Source of the DNA: Candidatus Chloroploca asiatica
GTDB lineage: Bacteria > Chloroflexota > Chloroflexia > Chloroflexales > Chloroflexaceae
Direction of reading: 5' to 3'
NCBI RefSeq assembly: GCF_002532075.1
Contig: NZ_LYXE01000121.1
Span: 1 to 38,104, forward strand
DNA length: 38,104 nucleotides
Made by a program: the position numbers and the translations under genes. Positions 2,998-9,817 of the stretch are shown here, in pieces. The first letter of the stretch is position 1; each line of letters starts with the position of its first letter. The notes under the pieces were generated by a model. The model worked only from the letters and a program-made list of their open reading frames with translations. It had not been told where the DNA came from and searched no databases.

Positions 2998-3645
2998 TTG
3001 AATGATGCACCAGTAACCCTTGTTGTGGATGGTCGTACAATCACGGCCCCTTCTGGACGCTCTATCATCGAGGCTGTCTGGGCTGCCGGCCAGACGCTTG
3101 TTGAGCATGTAGGCTGCTTCGGCCAGGGGGTGTGCGGTTCGTGCCGGGCTATGGTGCGCCGCGACGGATCACCTGAAGTGGGCTTCGTGCTTGCTTGTGA
3201 GACCCTCATCGAGCCGGGGATGCAGGTCAGTTTCGTGCGCGCGCTTGCCCCGCGCCGCGAGCGTCCTTATCAGGTTGACCAGTTCCAGGATTTGTGGCGT
3301 GTCGGTACGCAGGTGCGCACCGCTTTTCCCGAAGCGGCCCTTTGCCGCCACTGTGGCGGCTGTGACGCGGTCTGCCCCCGCAAGCTGGACGTTCAGGCAG
3401 GTGTCGGTGCGGTAGTAGACGGACGGCTCCACGAGGCGAGTGCTATCTTCGCGGCCTGTGTGATGTGCAATCTCTGCACGGCGGCCTGCCCCGAGCAGAT
3501 AACCCCCAATCATGTGGGGTTGTTTGCCCGTCGGCTTACGGTGACCCTGCTCAGCCGTCCCGCCAATCTTATGCGGCGCCTCGAGCAGCTTGAGCGTGGC
3601 GATCTGCGGGTTGAGATCGGTGCCGAGGAGCATGTGTATGGCTGA
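2998..3645 (+). CDS. FrdB/SdhB-like iron-sulfur electron-transfer subunit
   Basis: 215 aa from the TTG at 2998, chosen because AGGGAGG (2986-2992) lies 5 nt upstream; an in-frame start at 2965 has no such site. Residues 1-85 form a 2Fe-2S ferredoxin domain with Cys40, Cys46, Cys49 and Cys67. The C-x5-C-x2-C spacing is adrenodoxin-like rather than the C-x4-C usual in SdhB. Residues 110-180 hold two CxxCxxCxxxCP motifs (Cys116/119/122/126 and Cys154/157/160/164), predicting two 4Fe-4S clusters as in the C-terminal domain of FrdB, TfrB or HdrC proteins. It probably wires the NuoF-like subunit to the flavoprotein. The following gene starts inside its last codons (8-nt overlap). Confidence 0.85.
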   Translation: MNDAPVTLVVDGRTITAPSGRSIIEAVWAAGQTLVEHVGCFGQGVCGSCRAMVRRDGSPEVGFVLACETLIEPGMQVSFVRALAPRRERPYQVDQFQDLWRVGTQVRTAFPEAALCRHCGGCDAVCPRKLDVQAGVGAVVDGRLHEASAIFAACVMCNLCTAACPEQITPNHVGLFARRLTVTLLSRPANLMRRLEQLERGDLRVEIGAEEHVYG

Positions 3646-5263
3646 TTTCCACCCCTACGATGAGGCTCTTGTGCGTTACCGTGCGGGTGGCCATCGCCCC
3701 CGACCACTGCCAAAAGGCGTACTTGAACCGGTGGATCTGCTGCGTGAGTTCCACCCTGACTATCACGAAGAGGCTCAGGCCAGGCTTGCTGTCGGGCCGA
3801 ATCGTGGCGAGCGCTGCCAGGCTCAGGTGGCCGATCTGCTTCAGAGCAACGGCCTGGTTGATGAGATCGACCTCGCCGGTGCCCCTGTTCGCGACACGGA
3901 TGTGGTGATTGTCGGCGGCGGCGGTGCCGGCTGCGCGGCGGCCCTTGCCGCGGCTGAACAGGGTGCCAGGGTGACGCTGCTTACCAAGTTGCAACTCGGT
4001 GACAGCAATACGGTGATGGCCGAAGGTGGCATGCAGGCAGCTGTAGGTGCAGATGATACGCCGCAGCTTCACTATGATGATACGCTACAGGCTGGACAGT
4101 ACGTTGCCGAGCGTGCGCTTGTCGCTCAGATGGTGATGGACGGCCCTGGTATTGTGCGTTGGCTGATCCAGTTGGGCATGCAGTTCGACCAGGCAGGCAG
4201 CAGCCCGTTCGGTGACCTGCTGCTCAAGCGTCCTGGCGGAGGATCGGTCCCGCGCATTCTCTCCTTCCGCGACTATACGGGCCTCGAGTTGATGCGCGTG
4301 CTGCGCGAGGCGGTGAGCCATACGCCCGGCATCGAGGTGACGCCCCAGAGCCCTGTGGTTGAGTTGCTGAGCGACGAGCGGGGCCAGTGTGCCGGTGTGG
4401 TTGCCTACAGCATTGCTTACCGTCGGCTGTTTCTCATCCGGGCGCAGGCGGTCATTCTCGCCACAGGCGGGATCGGGAGGATTCACCTGGCGGGCTTCCC
4501 GACCTCGAACCATTTTGGGGCCACCGGCGACGGATTGGCCTTGGCGTACCGGCTCGGGGCGCGGCTCCGCGAGCTCGACTCGTACCAATTTCATCCGACA
4601 GGCCTGGCCTACCCGCGTCACCTTGTCGGCGGCCTGGTCTCTGAGGCTGCCCGCTCGGCGGGGGCCACGCTGCTCAACGGGTTTGGCGAGCGTTTTGTGG
4701 ATGAGTTGCAAACTCGTGACGTGGTAGCAGCAGCGATCATCCGGGAATGCCGTGAAGGGCGCGGGATCATGCGCGACGGGCAGATGGGCGTCTTGCTCGA
4801 CACACCGGGGCTAGAGGCCGCCTCGCCTGGCACGCTAGCGCGCTTCGGTGGCCTGCGCCACCTGGCCGCACGCTGCGGCCACGATCCCGCCGAAACACCC
4901 TTTCTGGTCTACCCAACCCTGCATTATCAGAACGGCGGCATTGCGATCGCTGGCGACGGCGCAACCAATGTCCCCGGACTCTTCTGCGCAGGCGAGGTAA
5001 CGGGCGGTATCCACGGGCGCAACCGACTGATGGGCAACTCGCTGCTCGACATCCTGAGCTTTGGGCAGCGAGCCGGGGCAGCGGCGGCCGTGCTGCGCAG
5101 CAGCTTGCCCCGGCGCAAAGTGGGCATCGGCCACCTGGCCGACTGGCAACGCGAACTGACTCTCGCCGGCCTCTCGCTAACACGGCGCTCGCCACGACTT
5201 TTTCCCGACTATGCCAACTTCGAGTTGCGAGCGCATGTGGGGGCGAAACGTGAAGCGTCATGA
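3638..5263 (+). CDS. Fumarate reductase/succinate dehydrogenase-type flavoprotein
   Basis: 541 aa. The start ATG at 3638 overlaps the previous stop and has GAGGAG 7 nt upstream. After an unusual ~85-residue N-terminal extension comes the FAD Rossmann motif (GGGGAG, 93-98). The dicarboxylate-site residues of the FrdA/SdhA family are present: His319 in HPTG, Glu336 and Arg339, Arg360 (the TRD proton-donor Arg), His429 in LHY, and Arg463 in NRL. Asn124 sits in SNTVMAEGG where FrdA/SdhA have the His that covalently binds FAD, so FAD is probably non-covalent. The C-terminal helical domain is much shortened. The 541-aa length is closer to thiol:fumarate reductase TfrA or L-aspartate oxidase than to SdhA. 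I favour a fumarate-reducing role because of the partners. L-aspartate oxidase is less likely, as it needs no such Fe-S or NADH subunits. Confidence 0.85.
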   Translation: MADFHPYDEALVRYRAGGHRPRPLPKGVLEPVDLLREFHPDYHEEAQARLAVGPNRGERCQAQVADLLQSNGLVDEIDLAGAPVRDTDVVIVGGGGAGCAAALAAAEQGARVTLLTKLQLGDSNTVMAEGGMQAAVGADDTPQLHYDDTLQAGQYVAERALVAQMVMDGPGIVRWLIQLGMQFDQAGSSPFGDLLLKRPGGGSVPRILSFRDYTGLELMRVLREAVSHTPGIEVTPQSPVVELLSDERGQCAGVVAYSIAYRRLFLIRAQAVILATGGIGRIHLAGFPTSNHFGATGDGLALAYRLGARLRELDSYQFHPTGLAYPRHLVGGLVSEAARSAGATLLNGFGERFVDELQTRDVVAAAIIRECREGRGIMRDGQMGVLLDTPGLEAASPGTLARFGGLRHLAARCGHDPAETPFLVYPTLHYQNGGIAIAGDGATNVPGLFCAGEVTGGIHGRNRLMGNSLLDILSFGQRAGAAAAVLRSSLPRRKVGIGHLADWQRELTLAGLSLTRRSPRLFPDYANFELRAHVGAKREAS

Positions 5264-5299
5264 ACCTTGCACCGTTTCCCAGGCTATAATGGAGCACCT

Positions 5300-6544
5300 A
5301 TGAGCTCACTCAACCAGGTGCTGCGGCACCCCAAGACGCTGGTTGGTACCGATCTTGATGCGTGGTTTGCGAATGGCGGCGGCGTGGGCCTGGCAAATGC
5401 TCTCGGCGATCCGAGCGCCATCCTGCCCACGCTAGAGGCTGCCGGACTGCGGGGCATGGGCGGGGCTGGCTTCCCGATCTTTCGCAAGTGGGGCTTCATG
5501 CTGCCCTCGCCCCGTGACGGAGGCGACCGCTATTTTGTCGTCAATGGCAATGAAGACGAACCAGGCACGTTCAAGGATCGGGCCTTGCTTGCCGAGAGCC
5601 CGCACCAGGTGATCGAGGGTGCGCTGATCGCCGCGCTCGCGCTCGACGTCAACCAGATCGTGCTCTACCTCAACCCCGGGGCCACCGACGCCCTCGCCGC
5701 CGCCGAGACCGCGATCAGCCAGTGGCACCCGCATCTTGATGAAGTTGCCGCAACCATCGGCCAGAGGATTGCGCTGCGGGTCGTCTGCTCGTCGGGCCTC
5801 TACATCGGCGGCGAGGAGACCGCAGTCATCGCTACGGTAGAGGGCGGTTTCCCCTTTCCACGCCAGAAGCCGCCCTTCCCGGCGCAGAGCGGAGTACATG
5901 GCCGACCGACCACGGTCAACAATGTCGAGACCGTGGCCCATGTGACCCACATCCTGCGCCACGGGGCCGAGTGGTACCGCAACCTGGGCCTCGGCGAGGC
6001 GGTGGGCACCAAGCTCTACTCGCTCAGTGGCGACGTGCTGCGCCCGGGTCTCTATGAATTGCCAATGGGCACAACGCTGCGCGAGCTGGTCTTTACCCAC
6101 GGGGGCGGGATGCTTCAGGGCAAAGCGTTCAAGGCCGTCTTTACCGGCGGCCCCTCGAATACGATCCTTACAGCCGAAGATCTGGACGCGCCGCTCGACT
6201 GGGACTCGCTGCGGGCGTACCGCTCACGCCTCGGTACCGGGGCGATGATCGTGATCTCAGAGGGGGCGAGCATCGTGCGTCGGGTGGCCGACTACGTCGA
6301 ATTCTTCGCCGATGGCTCGTGCGGTCAATGCCCGCCCTGCAAGATTGGTACGCGTGAACTGGCCGGGGTATTGCGCACCATTGACGCAGGTCGTGGAACG
6401 CAGGCCGATCTGGCTCATATCGAGCATATGTGTGGGTTGCTCCCTGGGAGCGGGCGCTGCGCTCTGGTGGATGGTGCTATTACGGTGGTGGACAGCGCAC
6501 TCGCCAAGTTGCGCGATGAGTTCGAGCGCCTGCTGGTTGATTGA
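5300..6544 (+). CDS. NuoF-like NADH-binding FMN/4Fe-4S subunit
   Basis: 414 aa from ATG 5300, with GGAG 5 nt upstream; a TTG at 5267 is in frame but lacks a site. It matches the NuoF/51-kDa family: glycine-rich GMGGAGFP (52-59) and NEDEPGTFKDR (84-94) for FMN/NADH, an SLBB-like middle part (about 235-290), and a C-terminal 4Fe-4S domain with Cys341, Cys344, Cys347 and Cys387. No NuoE or NuoG partner is nearby. Similar stand-alone NuoF modules feed NADH electrons into hydrogenases, formate dehydrogenases and other reductases. Lying 36 nt after the FrdA-like gene, it is the likely NADH entry point of a three-subunit soluble oxidoreductase. Confidence 0.87.
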   Translation: MSSLNQVLRHPKTLVGTDLDAWFANGGGVGLANALGDPSAILPTLEAAGLRGMGGAGFPIFRKWGFMLPSPRDGGDRYFVVNGNEDEPGTFKDRALLAESPHQVIEGALIAALALDVNQIVLYLNPGATDALAAAETAISQWHPHLDEVAATIGQRIALRVVCSSGLYIGGEETAVIATVEGGFPFPRQKPPFPAQSGVHGRPTTVNNVETVAHVTHILRHGAEWYRNLGLGEAVGTKLYSLSGDVLRPGLYELPMGTTLRELVFTHGGGMLQGKAFKAVFTGGPSNTILTAEDLDAPLDWDSLRAYRSRLGTGAMIVISEGASIVRRVADYVEFFADGSCGQCPPCKIGTRELAGVLRTIDAGRGTQADLAHIEHMCGLLPGSGRCALVDGAITVVDSALAKLRDEFERLLVD

Positions 6545-8869: not shown

Positions 8870-9817
8870 TCATATCCCTTCGCTTTCCCACGCCCGAATG
8901 CTTGCGATGACCTCGTTGGCCGAGTGGGTGCAGTGGTCGGTTCCGTCGGGCAGCCTACTCTTGCCATCGTAGTAGCCGCCGGGACCCGTGTGGGCAATGG
9001 GCCCGATAGCGCACTCGCGGTAGATGCCGCGCTGACGGGCTTCCCACCACGGCGAGCGGTGGTTGATCGGCCAGCGGCTGGGGAAGATCATCTGCGGAAG
9101 CATCGTTGCCACCGGGTCTTTTGTCCCGTAGAGATGGTCGAAGTGTCGAAAGCTGAGGATGGCAGGGTCGCCGCTCATCACGCCGCCGAGGGAGACCATG
9201 CGTACGGGGACATGCAACGCCTGAGCGAGGAACGGCCCCGTCCCGAGGCCCATCTGCCCGCCACCGCTGGATCCGACCAGCGTAATTGGCACCCCACTGT
9301 TAATGACGTAGCCGTGGCGAACGAGAGCGATCAGGATCTGCTTTGCCAGACCGAAGCTTATCACCGGGCCATAGCGGCGGTCGGCCGAGACGAGAACCTG
9401 GAAGAGGTTGCGGGTATTGATCAGTTGCTGCCAGAAGCCGCCACGCCCAATGGCGTGGTGCCACAGCCGTCCCAGGGGCCGGGCCGGATGATCGAGGCTG
9501 AGGCCCAGCACCGAGTAGGGCAGCACCCCGTCAACAACGACCGTGTCGGGCAGGTGCGCCCGGAGCTGGGCGATAAAGGGCTGCTCCTCCTCCGGAACCT
9601 CGCCGCTGCGGGGGCTGCCTACGCCCGAGAGGAAGACCACATAGTGGCGCGCCGCCGCGCCACCGACGCCCTGGCGCTCGCGCAGAGCGTCGGCGGCAGC
9701 TTCCAATTCGTGGTCGTTGCCGAACCAGCCCGCCCACCAGCCGAGCGCCTCGAGCGGGGCGAGCGCGAGGCTTACCGCGACGAGGGCGAGGGCACCGAAG
9801 AACAGCAGCGCAAGCAT
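8870..9817 (-). CDS. Membrane-anchored alpha/beta hydrolase-like protein (copy B)
   Basis: 315 aa, a clear paralogue of the protein at 367-1338. Shared features are an N-terminal hydrophobic anchor (3-25), GWWAGWFG (26-33), a HYVVFLSGVG strand and the nucleophile elbow GSSGGGQ with Ser184. Asp234 in YGTKDP and His276 in IAHTG fill the other triad positions. The substrate is unknown. It lies in the middle of an operon, after the GT28-type glycosyltransferase and 7 nt before the truncated permease. The hydrolase is thus paired with lipid-envelope genes at both of its loci, which supports an inferred membrane-associated substrate. Confidence 0.8.
   Translation of the reverse strand: MLALLFFGALALVAVSLALAPLEALGWWAGWFGNDHELEAAADALRERQGVGGAAARHYVVFLSGVGSPRSGEVPEEEQPFIAQLRAHLPDTVVVDGVLPYSVLGLSLDHPARPLGRLWHHAIGRGGFWQQLINTRNLFQVLVSADRRYGPVISFGLAKQILIALVRHGYVINSGVPITLVGSSGGGQMGLGTGPFLAQALHVPVRMVSLGGVMSGDPAILSFRHFDHLYGTKDPVATMLPQMIFPSRWPINHRSPWWEARQRGIYRECAIGPIAHTGPGGYYDGKSRLPDGTDHCTHSANEVIASIRAWESEGI

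Follow-up and report, generated by a model that had tools for sequence, protein, structure and literature searches.

A close-packed FrdB–FrdA–NuoF operon of Candidatus Chloroploca asiatica probably encodes a soluble NADH:fumarate oxidoreductase

Three intact, close-packed ORFs on the + strand, at positions 2998–6544 of a 38,104-nucleotide stretch of the Candidatus Chloroploca asiatica genome (contig NZ_LYXE01000121.1; the whole stretch is referred to as the window), raise the question of which reaction an iron–sulfur protein, an FrdA-like flavoprotein, and a NuoF-like protein could carry out together. These three linked genes, in this order, had been proposed in a sequence-only reading, with which both the ORFs and their Pfam domains agree. 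The genes are as follows:

2998..3645, + strand: frdB-like gene, 215 amino acids; TTG start with GGGAGG just upstream; alternative in-frame TTG at 2965
3638..5263, + strand: frdA-like flavoprotein gene, 541 amino acids; ATG start; 8-nt overlap with the frdB-like gene
5300..6544, + strand: nuoF-like gene, 414 amino acids; ATG start; FMN/NADH domain, SLBB domain, and N3-type [4Fe-4S] domain

A promoter scan detected no + strand sites upstream of position 2998. The order FrdB–FrdA–NuoF, whose conservation had been suggested as a check, was kept in all 47 related loci, which derive from 45 genomes (L008 and L086 share one genome, as do L009 and L098), and in one further genome. Comparison of the window with Candidatus Chloroploca mongolica gave dN/dS values of 0.22, 0.06, and 0.02 for the FrdB-, FrdA-, and NuoF-like genes, respectively, from few substitutions (10, 33, and 15). 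The recurrence in 47 of 47 loci and these low values, even if based on few substitutions, indicate that the trio is more than a chance arrangement. Besides Chloroploca, it is carried by Neisseriaceae, other proteobacteria, and one Anaerolineae metagenome-assembled genome (MAG); FrdA identity across the trio loci was 52–99%, and a translated re-search recovered all three genes in 34 of 34 regions. Strong matches occurred in 26 of 83 Neisseriaceae genomes; six of these initially had no locus, of which two (L092 and L123) were added later and the other four lie outside the trio check. Near-threshold matches in two other Chloroflexota genomes (L053 and L054) were rejected as trio members, as they consisted of FrdBA with no NuoF match within flanks of approximately 1.5 kb. 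The L053 match is interrupted by two stops.

The sequence features that bear on cofactors and substrate are listed below. The FrdA and NuoF residue counts refer to 48 rows (the window and all 47 trio loci), and the FrdB alignment of 27 rows comprises five trio members and 22 FrdB rows from other operons.

3115..3198, + strand: [2Fe-2S] ligands Cys40, Cys46, Cys49, and Cys67 of the FrdB-like protein, invariant in 27 of 27 aligned FrdB
3343..3375, + strand: first [4Fe-4S] motif, CxxCxxCxxxCP (Cys116, 119, 122, and 126), invariant in 27 of 27
3457..3489, + strand: second motif, CxxCxxCxxxC (Cys154, 157, 160, and 164), invariant in 27 of 27
4007..4009, + strand: Asn124 codon of the FrdA-like protein, at the site of the covalent-FAD His in E. 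coli FrdA/SdhA; Asn in 48 of 48 rows
4592..5026, + strand: dicarboxylate-site residues His319, Ser335, Glu336, Arg339, Arg360, His429, and Arg463, identical in all 48 rows apart from position 335, which is Ser in 29 and Thr in 19
6317..6460, + strand: N3-type [4Fe-4S] ligands of the NuoF-like protein (SCGQCPPC and a distal Cys), all four Cys present throughout the 48 rows

The FrdB-like protein consists of Fer2_4 and 4Fe-4S dicluster domains according to Pfam; the [2Fe-2S] domain of the host SdhB is of the Fer2_3 type. The full pattern of 12 Cys was found in 47 of the 48 trio rows, the exception (L140) being truncated by a contig end. Quinone-linked enzymes have a [3Fe-4S] cluster at the second cluster position, and because the corresponding motif here contains four Cys, a [4Fe-4S] cluster is predicted instead. 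The single-chain model of the protein (pLDDT 83, pTM 0.72) matched PDB structures over partial domains alone, at TM values of about 0.3 (NuoG, RnfC, HydA, SdhB, and others), and we therefore make no claim on the geometry of the relay.

In the FrdA-like protein, which matched FAD_binding_2 (251.6 bits), the dicarboxylate-site residues named in the sequence-only reading were correct in the 541-residue numbering and aligned with the catalytic residues of FrdA and NadB from E. coli. The FAD is predicted to be non-covalent because Asn124 replaces the covalent-FAD His. The best fold match of the FrdA model in the PDB was E. coli FrdA (1kf6_A, TM 0.66), and the model was weak (pLDDT <50) at residues 124–129, 278–281, and 291–295. 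The trio members formed a clade with 97/96 support in a tree that took in 62 of the 80 FrdA rows gathered. Among the NCBIfam models, the top match was TfrA, far below its cut-off, followed by nadB; because no model names the trio flavoprotein, its mis-annotation is likely.

The NuoF-like protein carries the Complex1_51K, SLBB, and NADH_4Fe-4S domains, and its score fell short of the curated cut-off for complex I NuoF (365.9 versus 558.65 bits). In a tree of the window and 20 of 36 trio loci, from which two loci with weak NuoF (L070 and L071) were excluded and in which the NuoF of L059, split between frames, was represented by its longer piece alone, unjoined, the trio members formed their own clade (100/100). 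The trio clades of FrdA and NuoF contained matching subgroups, as judged by eye. At E 1e-15, neither NuoE, the usual partner of NuoF, nor NuoG was matched in the window or 34 related regions; with the separate NuoF clade, this led us to reject a remnant of complex I. The missing NuoE also counts against the function proposed for the trio.

The absence of a membrane anchor, as originally claimed, agrees with two kinds of search. None of the three proteins contained a 19-residue stretch resembling a membrane helix (best Kyte–Doolittle means, 1.65, 1.61, and 1.79), and at E 1e-15 neither E. coli FrdC/FrdD nor the host SdhC was matched in the window or 34 related regions, a search that short divergent anchors could escape. 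A flavoprotein of the FrdA type with a dicarboxylate site, an NADH-binding subunit, and no anchor match, as judged from sequence, are features expected of a fumarate reductase of the soluble, NADH-dependent kind (EC 1.3.1.6 type).

We therefore consider it probable that the product of the operon is a soluble heterotrimeric NADH:fumarate oxidoreductase. This was the function originally proposed, and its checkable sequence claims are borne out; the assembly of the three proteins into one complex, the activity, the order of the clusters, NADH as the donor, fumarate as the substrate, the direction, and the role in the host are what we infer from them. In the NuoF-like subunit, FMN would take up the electrons of NADH and the N3-type [4Fe-4S] cluster would hand them on to the FrdB-like subunit, whose two [4Fe-4S] clusters and one [2Fe-2S] cluster would relay them to a non-covalent FAD in the FrdA-like subunit. 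Fumarate would be reduced to succinate at this FAD, with Arg360 as the proton donor, a role that we assume by analogy with flavocytochrome c3 and E. coli FrdA. Because NAD+ would be returned without contact with the quinone pool and without ion movement, the enzyme could be a redox sink and supply the fumarate step in a reductive TCA branch.

The genes that neighbor the trio in its relatives point to fumarate and succinate metabolism. Of the 11 Neisseriaceae regions, 10 had a class I fumarase beside the trio (the remaining one ends at the trio), and all 11 had a DASS symporter. Among the 19 non-Neisseriaceae regions, KorA and KorB adjoined the trio in 11, and also at L009, and were absent from eight, whereas malate dehydrogenase was found in two. 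No fumarate-type neighbor was found at the Chloroploca locus or in the Anaerolineae MAG, and the metabolic context is therefore borrowed from the relatives.

The same fold could also serve an NADH-dependent reductase of another 2-enoate, such as mesaconate, methylfumarate, or an acrylate-like compound. The position equivalent to NadB residue 121, which is Phe in E. coli FrdA and SdhA, is Ala in 45, Pro in two, and Val in one of the 48 trio rows, and another enoate is therefore possible; the lack of fumarate-gene neighbors in Chloroploca would also fit. The 3-hydroxypropionate (3-OHP) pathway includes mesaconyl-CoA intermediates. According to the available part of the genome paper, 3-OHP genes occur in the Chloroploca lineage and Calvin genes are missing from it, and RuBisCO had no match in the host genome, so that an initial remark on the 3-OHP cycle fits the genus. 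Nevertheless, the complete set of C4-dicarboxylate residues and the fumarase, malate dehydrogenase, and KorAB genes adjoining the trio in relatives make another enoate an unlikely substrate.

Very unlikely is the reading of the flavoprotein as an L-aspartate oxidase or dehydrogenase passing electrons to NAD+ via FrdB and NuoF. NadB belongs to the same superfamily, TIGR00551 (nadB) scored 291.6 bits against the FrdA-like protein of the window, and two of 30 regions (L150 and L151) have a true nadB immediately upstream of the trio. However, this score is below the nadB cut-off of 452.75, which genuine NadB proteins exceed (511.1 for the host NadB on contig C156; 652.7 and 656.5 for those of L150 and L151), and a 100/100 branch with a length of 2.8, to be read with caution because the branches are long, separated the trio FrdA from the E. 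coli and host NadB. Moreover, NadB Glu121, present in the host, L150, and L151 NadB, was absent from all 48 trio rows. Placement among the L-aspartate oxidases, which would have spoken against the original proposal, is thus rejected on the separate clade, the score cut-off, and the missing Glu121.

KorAB needs reduced ferredoxin, fumarate is a high-potential acceptor, and the presence of KorAB beside the trio in 11 of the 19 non-Neisseriaceae regions could suggest electron bifurcation, in which NADH would reduce fumarate and ferredoxin jointly and thereby feed KorAB. A NuoF residue pattern separating bifurcating from non-bifurcating enzymes is given in the available text of PMC7311640, with Ala/Glu and Met, Phe, GGPSG, and extra Fe-S domains as the bifurcating signature. 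In the trio NuoF, Thr and Lys stood in all 48 rows, Tyr in 45, the bifurcating Phe in three, and GGPSG in none, and apart from the three Phe rows it therefore shows the pattern published there as non-bifurcating. As Pfam detected no added Fe-S domain in the window NuoF, bifurcation has hardly any probability on these criteria.

Equally remote is a succinate:NAD+ oxidoreductase working in the oxidative direction, given that textbook standard potentials put electron transfer from succinate to NAD+ about 350 mV uphill, that the FAD is predicted to be non-covalent and E. coli FrdA mutants with non-covalent FAD favor fumarate reduction, and that the host already has SdhC–SdhA–SdhB on contig C56. 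The point in its favor is that the Chloroflexus 3-OHP cycle, as far as the available account goes, contains a succinate dehydrogenase. That the proposed NADH:fumarate oxidoreductase runs against normal succinate oxidation in the host is speculation. If the proposal is true, NADH would be reoxidized on fumarate in the cytoplasm independently of quinones, the membrane, and the proton motive force, and the picture of redox balance under anaerobic conditions and of the reductive TCA branch would change for a green filamentous phototroph, for Neisseriaceae, and for other proteobacteria.

No description of an FrdB–FrdA–NuoF enzyme was found in the literature by title or abstract. In the accessible portion of PMC12604563, frdABCD and frdAB are named for Accumulibacter/Propionivibrio and no such trio is described; fumarate reduction by Blautia luti was, in the part available of PMC12773636, measured with methyl viologen and therefore gives no evidence on NADH.

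Among known systems, complex II (E. coli FrdABCD and SdhCDAB) has the catalytic fold and residues in common with the trio FrdA, whereas its membrane anchor, covalent-FAD His, and three-Cys second cluster were not seen in the trio. The trio NuoF has the FMN/NADH/[4Fe-4S] module in common with complex I NuoF and the beta subunits of formate dehydrogenases and hydrogenases, but differs in forming its own clade with no NuoE or NuoG match nearby. The CCG/HdrB-linked FrdBA of Chloroflexaceae (TfrAB/SdhABE-like) is also an FrdB–FrdA pair, with a flavoprotein 45–47% identical; the host itself has this Hdr-linked FrdBA, with HdrB, HdrC, HdrA-like, and MvhD-like partners where the trio has NuoF. In trio loci L001 and L006–L009, pCCG had no match, and Pfam found no CCG (HdrB-like) domain in the window genes and their neighbors. 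The FrdA of Nitrospirota, accompanied by one or two FrdB, is the sister group of the trio FrdA (47–50% identical, same active site), but unlike the trio, the loci fetched had no NuoF match. At the Nitrospirota locus L011, the sister-clade FrdA lies between aconitase and SucCD genes, and the NuoF present in two Nitrospirota genomes (G421 and G422) is unlinked, contains the CGQCPPCK motif, and is 43–51% identical.

Soluble NADH-dependent fumarate reduction is already known from Hydrogenobacter: Miura et al. (2008, J Bacteriol 190:7170) reportedly described such an enzyme in the reductive TCA cycle of Hydrogenobacter thermophilus, and its FrdABCDE is said to have five subunits encoded by dispersed genes, with an FrdA-type catalytic subunit. 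The predicted enzyme of the trio would likewise be soluble and NADH-dependent, and its genes differ from the five dispersed ones in standing together as a linked set of three at each of the 47 loci. In the available text of PMC11508158, KEGG K18556–K18560 are the entries for the Hydrogenobacter-type FrdABCDE. By its predicted subunits, the trio would be a compact variant, with a NuoF gene in the place that anchor genes occupy in quinone-linked enzymes. A broader reading, with slightly less than even prospects, is that it represents a distinct and widespread class of complex II and the smallest NADH-fed fumarate reductase, in which NuoF, a complex I NADH module, docks directly on FrdB at the anchor site, that the cassette has moved between Pseudomonadota and Chloroflexota, and that the enzymes of Nitrospirota, and possibly Aquificota, are its dispersed-gene relatives.

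Three adjoining genes in the window encode the components of a predicted soluble NADH:fumarate oxidoreductase, and all are intact:

2998–3645, + strand, TTG start: FrdB-like iron-sulphur protein (Pfam Fer2_4 and 4Fe-4S dicluster)
3638–5263, + strand, ATG start: FrdA-like flavoprotein (Pfam FAD_binding_2)
5300–6544, + strand, ATG start: NuoF-like protein (Pfam Complex1_51K, SLBB, and NADH_4Fe-4S)

Among the NCBIfam families shown, none of the three attained the cut-off of a named family. The flavoprotein scored highest against TfrA (300.7 bits vs a cut-off of 718) and reached 291.6 bits against nadB (cut-off, 452.75), and the best family of the NuoF-like protein was nuoF (365.9 vs 558.65 bits). 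The dN/dS values relative to Ca. Chloroploca mongolica (FrdB, 0.22; FrdA, 0.06; NuoF, 0.02; from 10, 33, and 15 substitutions, respectively) suggest that the three genes are under purifying selection. Two proteins, one on each side of the trio (367–1338 and 8870–9817, both on the − strand), have a common ALGWWAGWFG stretch near the start; NCBIfam returned no match for either, and Pfam none for the first.

The linkage of the three genes was widely conserved. When 84,980 species genomes were searched by pattern, 27 relatives of the flavoprotein emerged, four of which lay in the same FrdB, FrdA, NuoF order (Chloroploca mongolica, an Anaerolineae MAG, Bergeriella denitrificans, and a Nitrosomonadales MAG). 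Strong matches were then counted in whole-genome searches, whose genome draws overlap. Chloroflexota had them in 4 of 400 genomes, two with the trio and two without NuoF, and Bergeriella's family in 26 of 83. For the order and the class of the Nitrosomonadales MAG, the counts were 16 of 399 and 12 of 369, respectively. All 43 loci fetched from the family, order, and class searches (32 + 11) carried the trio, as did the first four loci, giving 47 of 47 loci in 45 genomes; FrdB was cut by the contig end in one (L140). A further genome among the 26 of the family search (L123) also had the trio, which was present in two of the three genomes of the host genus. The other 14 genomes matching at 1e-100 in a 41-genome sample of the host's family comprised 13 with the kind linked to an HdrB-like (CCG) partner and one cut-off locus (L047).

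In phylogenetic trees, the trio members formed a single clade for both FrdA (62 rows; support, 97/96) and NuoF (36 rows; 100/100), with subgroups that matched by eye. The FrdA clade adjoined a group of Nitrospirota and CCG-linked sequences, held together with it by a 100/100 branch of length 2.8, beyond which lay the E. coli and host NadB; the SdhA, FrdA, and NadB of E. coli and the host sat on long branches, which leaves their relative order unsure. The Chloroflexota rows were nested in otherwise proteobacterial diversity in both trees, adjoining Neisseriaceae and one other proteobacterial subgroup (FrdA, 90/65, weak; NuoF, 94/92), a placement suggesting, short of proof, that the trio was transferred as a unit.

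The catalytic residues were examined in 48 rows (the window and 47 loci, two genomes being counted twice). The equivalents of E. coli FrdA His233, Glu246, Arg249, Arg288, His356, and Arg391 were kept in all rows, the Thr245 position was Ser in 29 and Thr in 19, the position of the covalent-FAD His was invariably Asn, and that of NadB Glu121 was Ala in 45, Pro in two, and Val in one. The 12 FrdB cysteines were kept in 27/27 rows of a mixed alignment and 47/48 trio rows, the exception being the cut fragment. The second ferredoxin motif of FrdB contains four cysteines and hence predicts a [4Fe-4S] cluster rather than the [3Fe-4S] cluster that faces quinone. The modeled FrdA (pLDDT, 79; pTM, 0.84; weak near 124–129, 278–281, and 291–295) matched E. 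coli FrdA best (1kf6_A; TM, 0.66), and the FrdB model gave only partial domain matches. The alignment of the trio FrdA to E. coli SdhA/FrdA stopped near residue 500 of 557, approximately 170–190 residues short of their ends, so the protein lacks most of the usual C-terminal domain; its N-terminal extension of approximately 85 residues includes invariant positions.

In NuoF, the four N3 cysteines were present in 48/48 rows. The residue pattern given for non-bifurcating beta subunits in PMC7311640 was also found (Thr and Lys in 48/48; Tyr in 45/48, with Phe in three). GGPSG occurred in none of the 48 rows. On the economical reading, electrons would pass from NADH through FMN, the N3 [4Fe-4S] cluster, the FrdB clusters, and FAD to fumarate. 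By textbook potentials, this transfer is approximately 350 mV downhill, so the reaction should run towards succinate. The enzyme would spill reductant without conserving energy, which may be useful under NADH excess or where succinyl-CoA and 2-oxoglutarate are produced in the reductive direction.

In a translated search, each of the 34 regions covered (20 + 10 and the first four loci) yielded all three genes; NuoE, NuoG, FrdC, FrdD, and SdhC had no match at E 1e-15 in these regions or the window. In Neisseriaceae, a DASS symporter lay downstream of the trio in 11/11 regions and class I fumarase was present in 10/11 (both families confirmed), on both sides of the trio in L111; the eleventh region, L110, ends at the trio. 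Among the other 19 regions, KorA and KorB adjoined the trio in 11 (upstream in five, downstream in six), malate dehydrogenase was found in two (L117 and L148), a true nadB lay directly upstream in two (L150 and L151), and six (L114, L116, L118, L121, L144, and L152) had none of the genes sought. Of the first four loci, L009 had KorAB and L008 (Bergeriella) the DASS symporter; L006, L007, and the window had none of the neighbor genes sought. A sister FrdA in Nitrospirota (L011) lay between the aconitase and SucCD genes. Fumarase, malate dehydrogenase, KorAB, and SucCD all belong to the oxaloacetate–malate–fumarate–succinate–2-oxoglutarate line. A large protein followed KorAB in five class-draw regions (L143:11697-13501, L146:1-1458, L147:11891-13501, L148:1-1386, and L149:1-1457), with no Pfam match in the three copies tried and no NCBIfam match in one. 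In Bergeriella, the trio and symporter were followed by an apparent repeat array and Cas1/Cas2-like ORFs, named by eye (L008:6351-8259).

The trio flavoprotein was 99% identical to its counterpart in Ca. Chloroploca mongolica. A genome paper describes Ca. Chloroploca asiatica as supposedly an obligately anaerobic phototroph, of a lineage with 3-OHP cycle genes and without Calvin genes; we found no RuBisCO match in the host genome (5.84 Mb). The host also encodes SdhC-SdhA-SdhB (contig C56), NadA-NadB, each above its cut-off (C156), and a further FrdB-FrdA pair adjoining Hdr-like genes and KorABC (C109); therefore, the trio adds to succinate dehydrogenase and does not replace it. The C109 gene run (G000:C109:140000-152000, L154) reads HdrA-like, MvhD (FlpD), Fe-S protein, HdrC-like, HdrB (CCG), FrdB, FrdA, KorA, KorB, KorC, and its FrdB-FrdA set is a candidate Hdr-linked fumarate reductase, perhaps bifurcating. 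CCG-FrdB-FrdA was also found in other Chloroflexaceae.

The NADH-dependent fumarate reductase of Hydrogenobacter reportedly has five subunits encoded by scattered genes. KEGG numbers for FrdABCDE are given in PMC11508158. In two Nitrospirota genomes with FrdA/FrdB operons, an unlinked NuoF was 43–51% identical to that of the trio and had the same CGQCPPCK motif (L058, 1453–2757, − strand; L059, 1013–2310, + strand, with a split frame); by eye, both are flanked by an apparent sigma-54-type regulator and an ErpA-like gene. This arrangement appears to resemble a dispersed-gene version of the trio, with the placement of its NuoF beside the trio clade not settled by the tree. No description of the FrdB-FrdA-NuoF enzyme was found in the literature covered, most subscription papers lying outside it. 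Given the Hydrogenobacter enzyme, this kind of enzyme is already known, and what is added here is its linked three-subunit form, the spread of that form, and its sharp clade.
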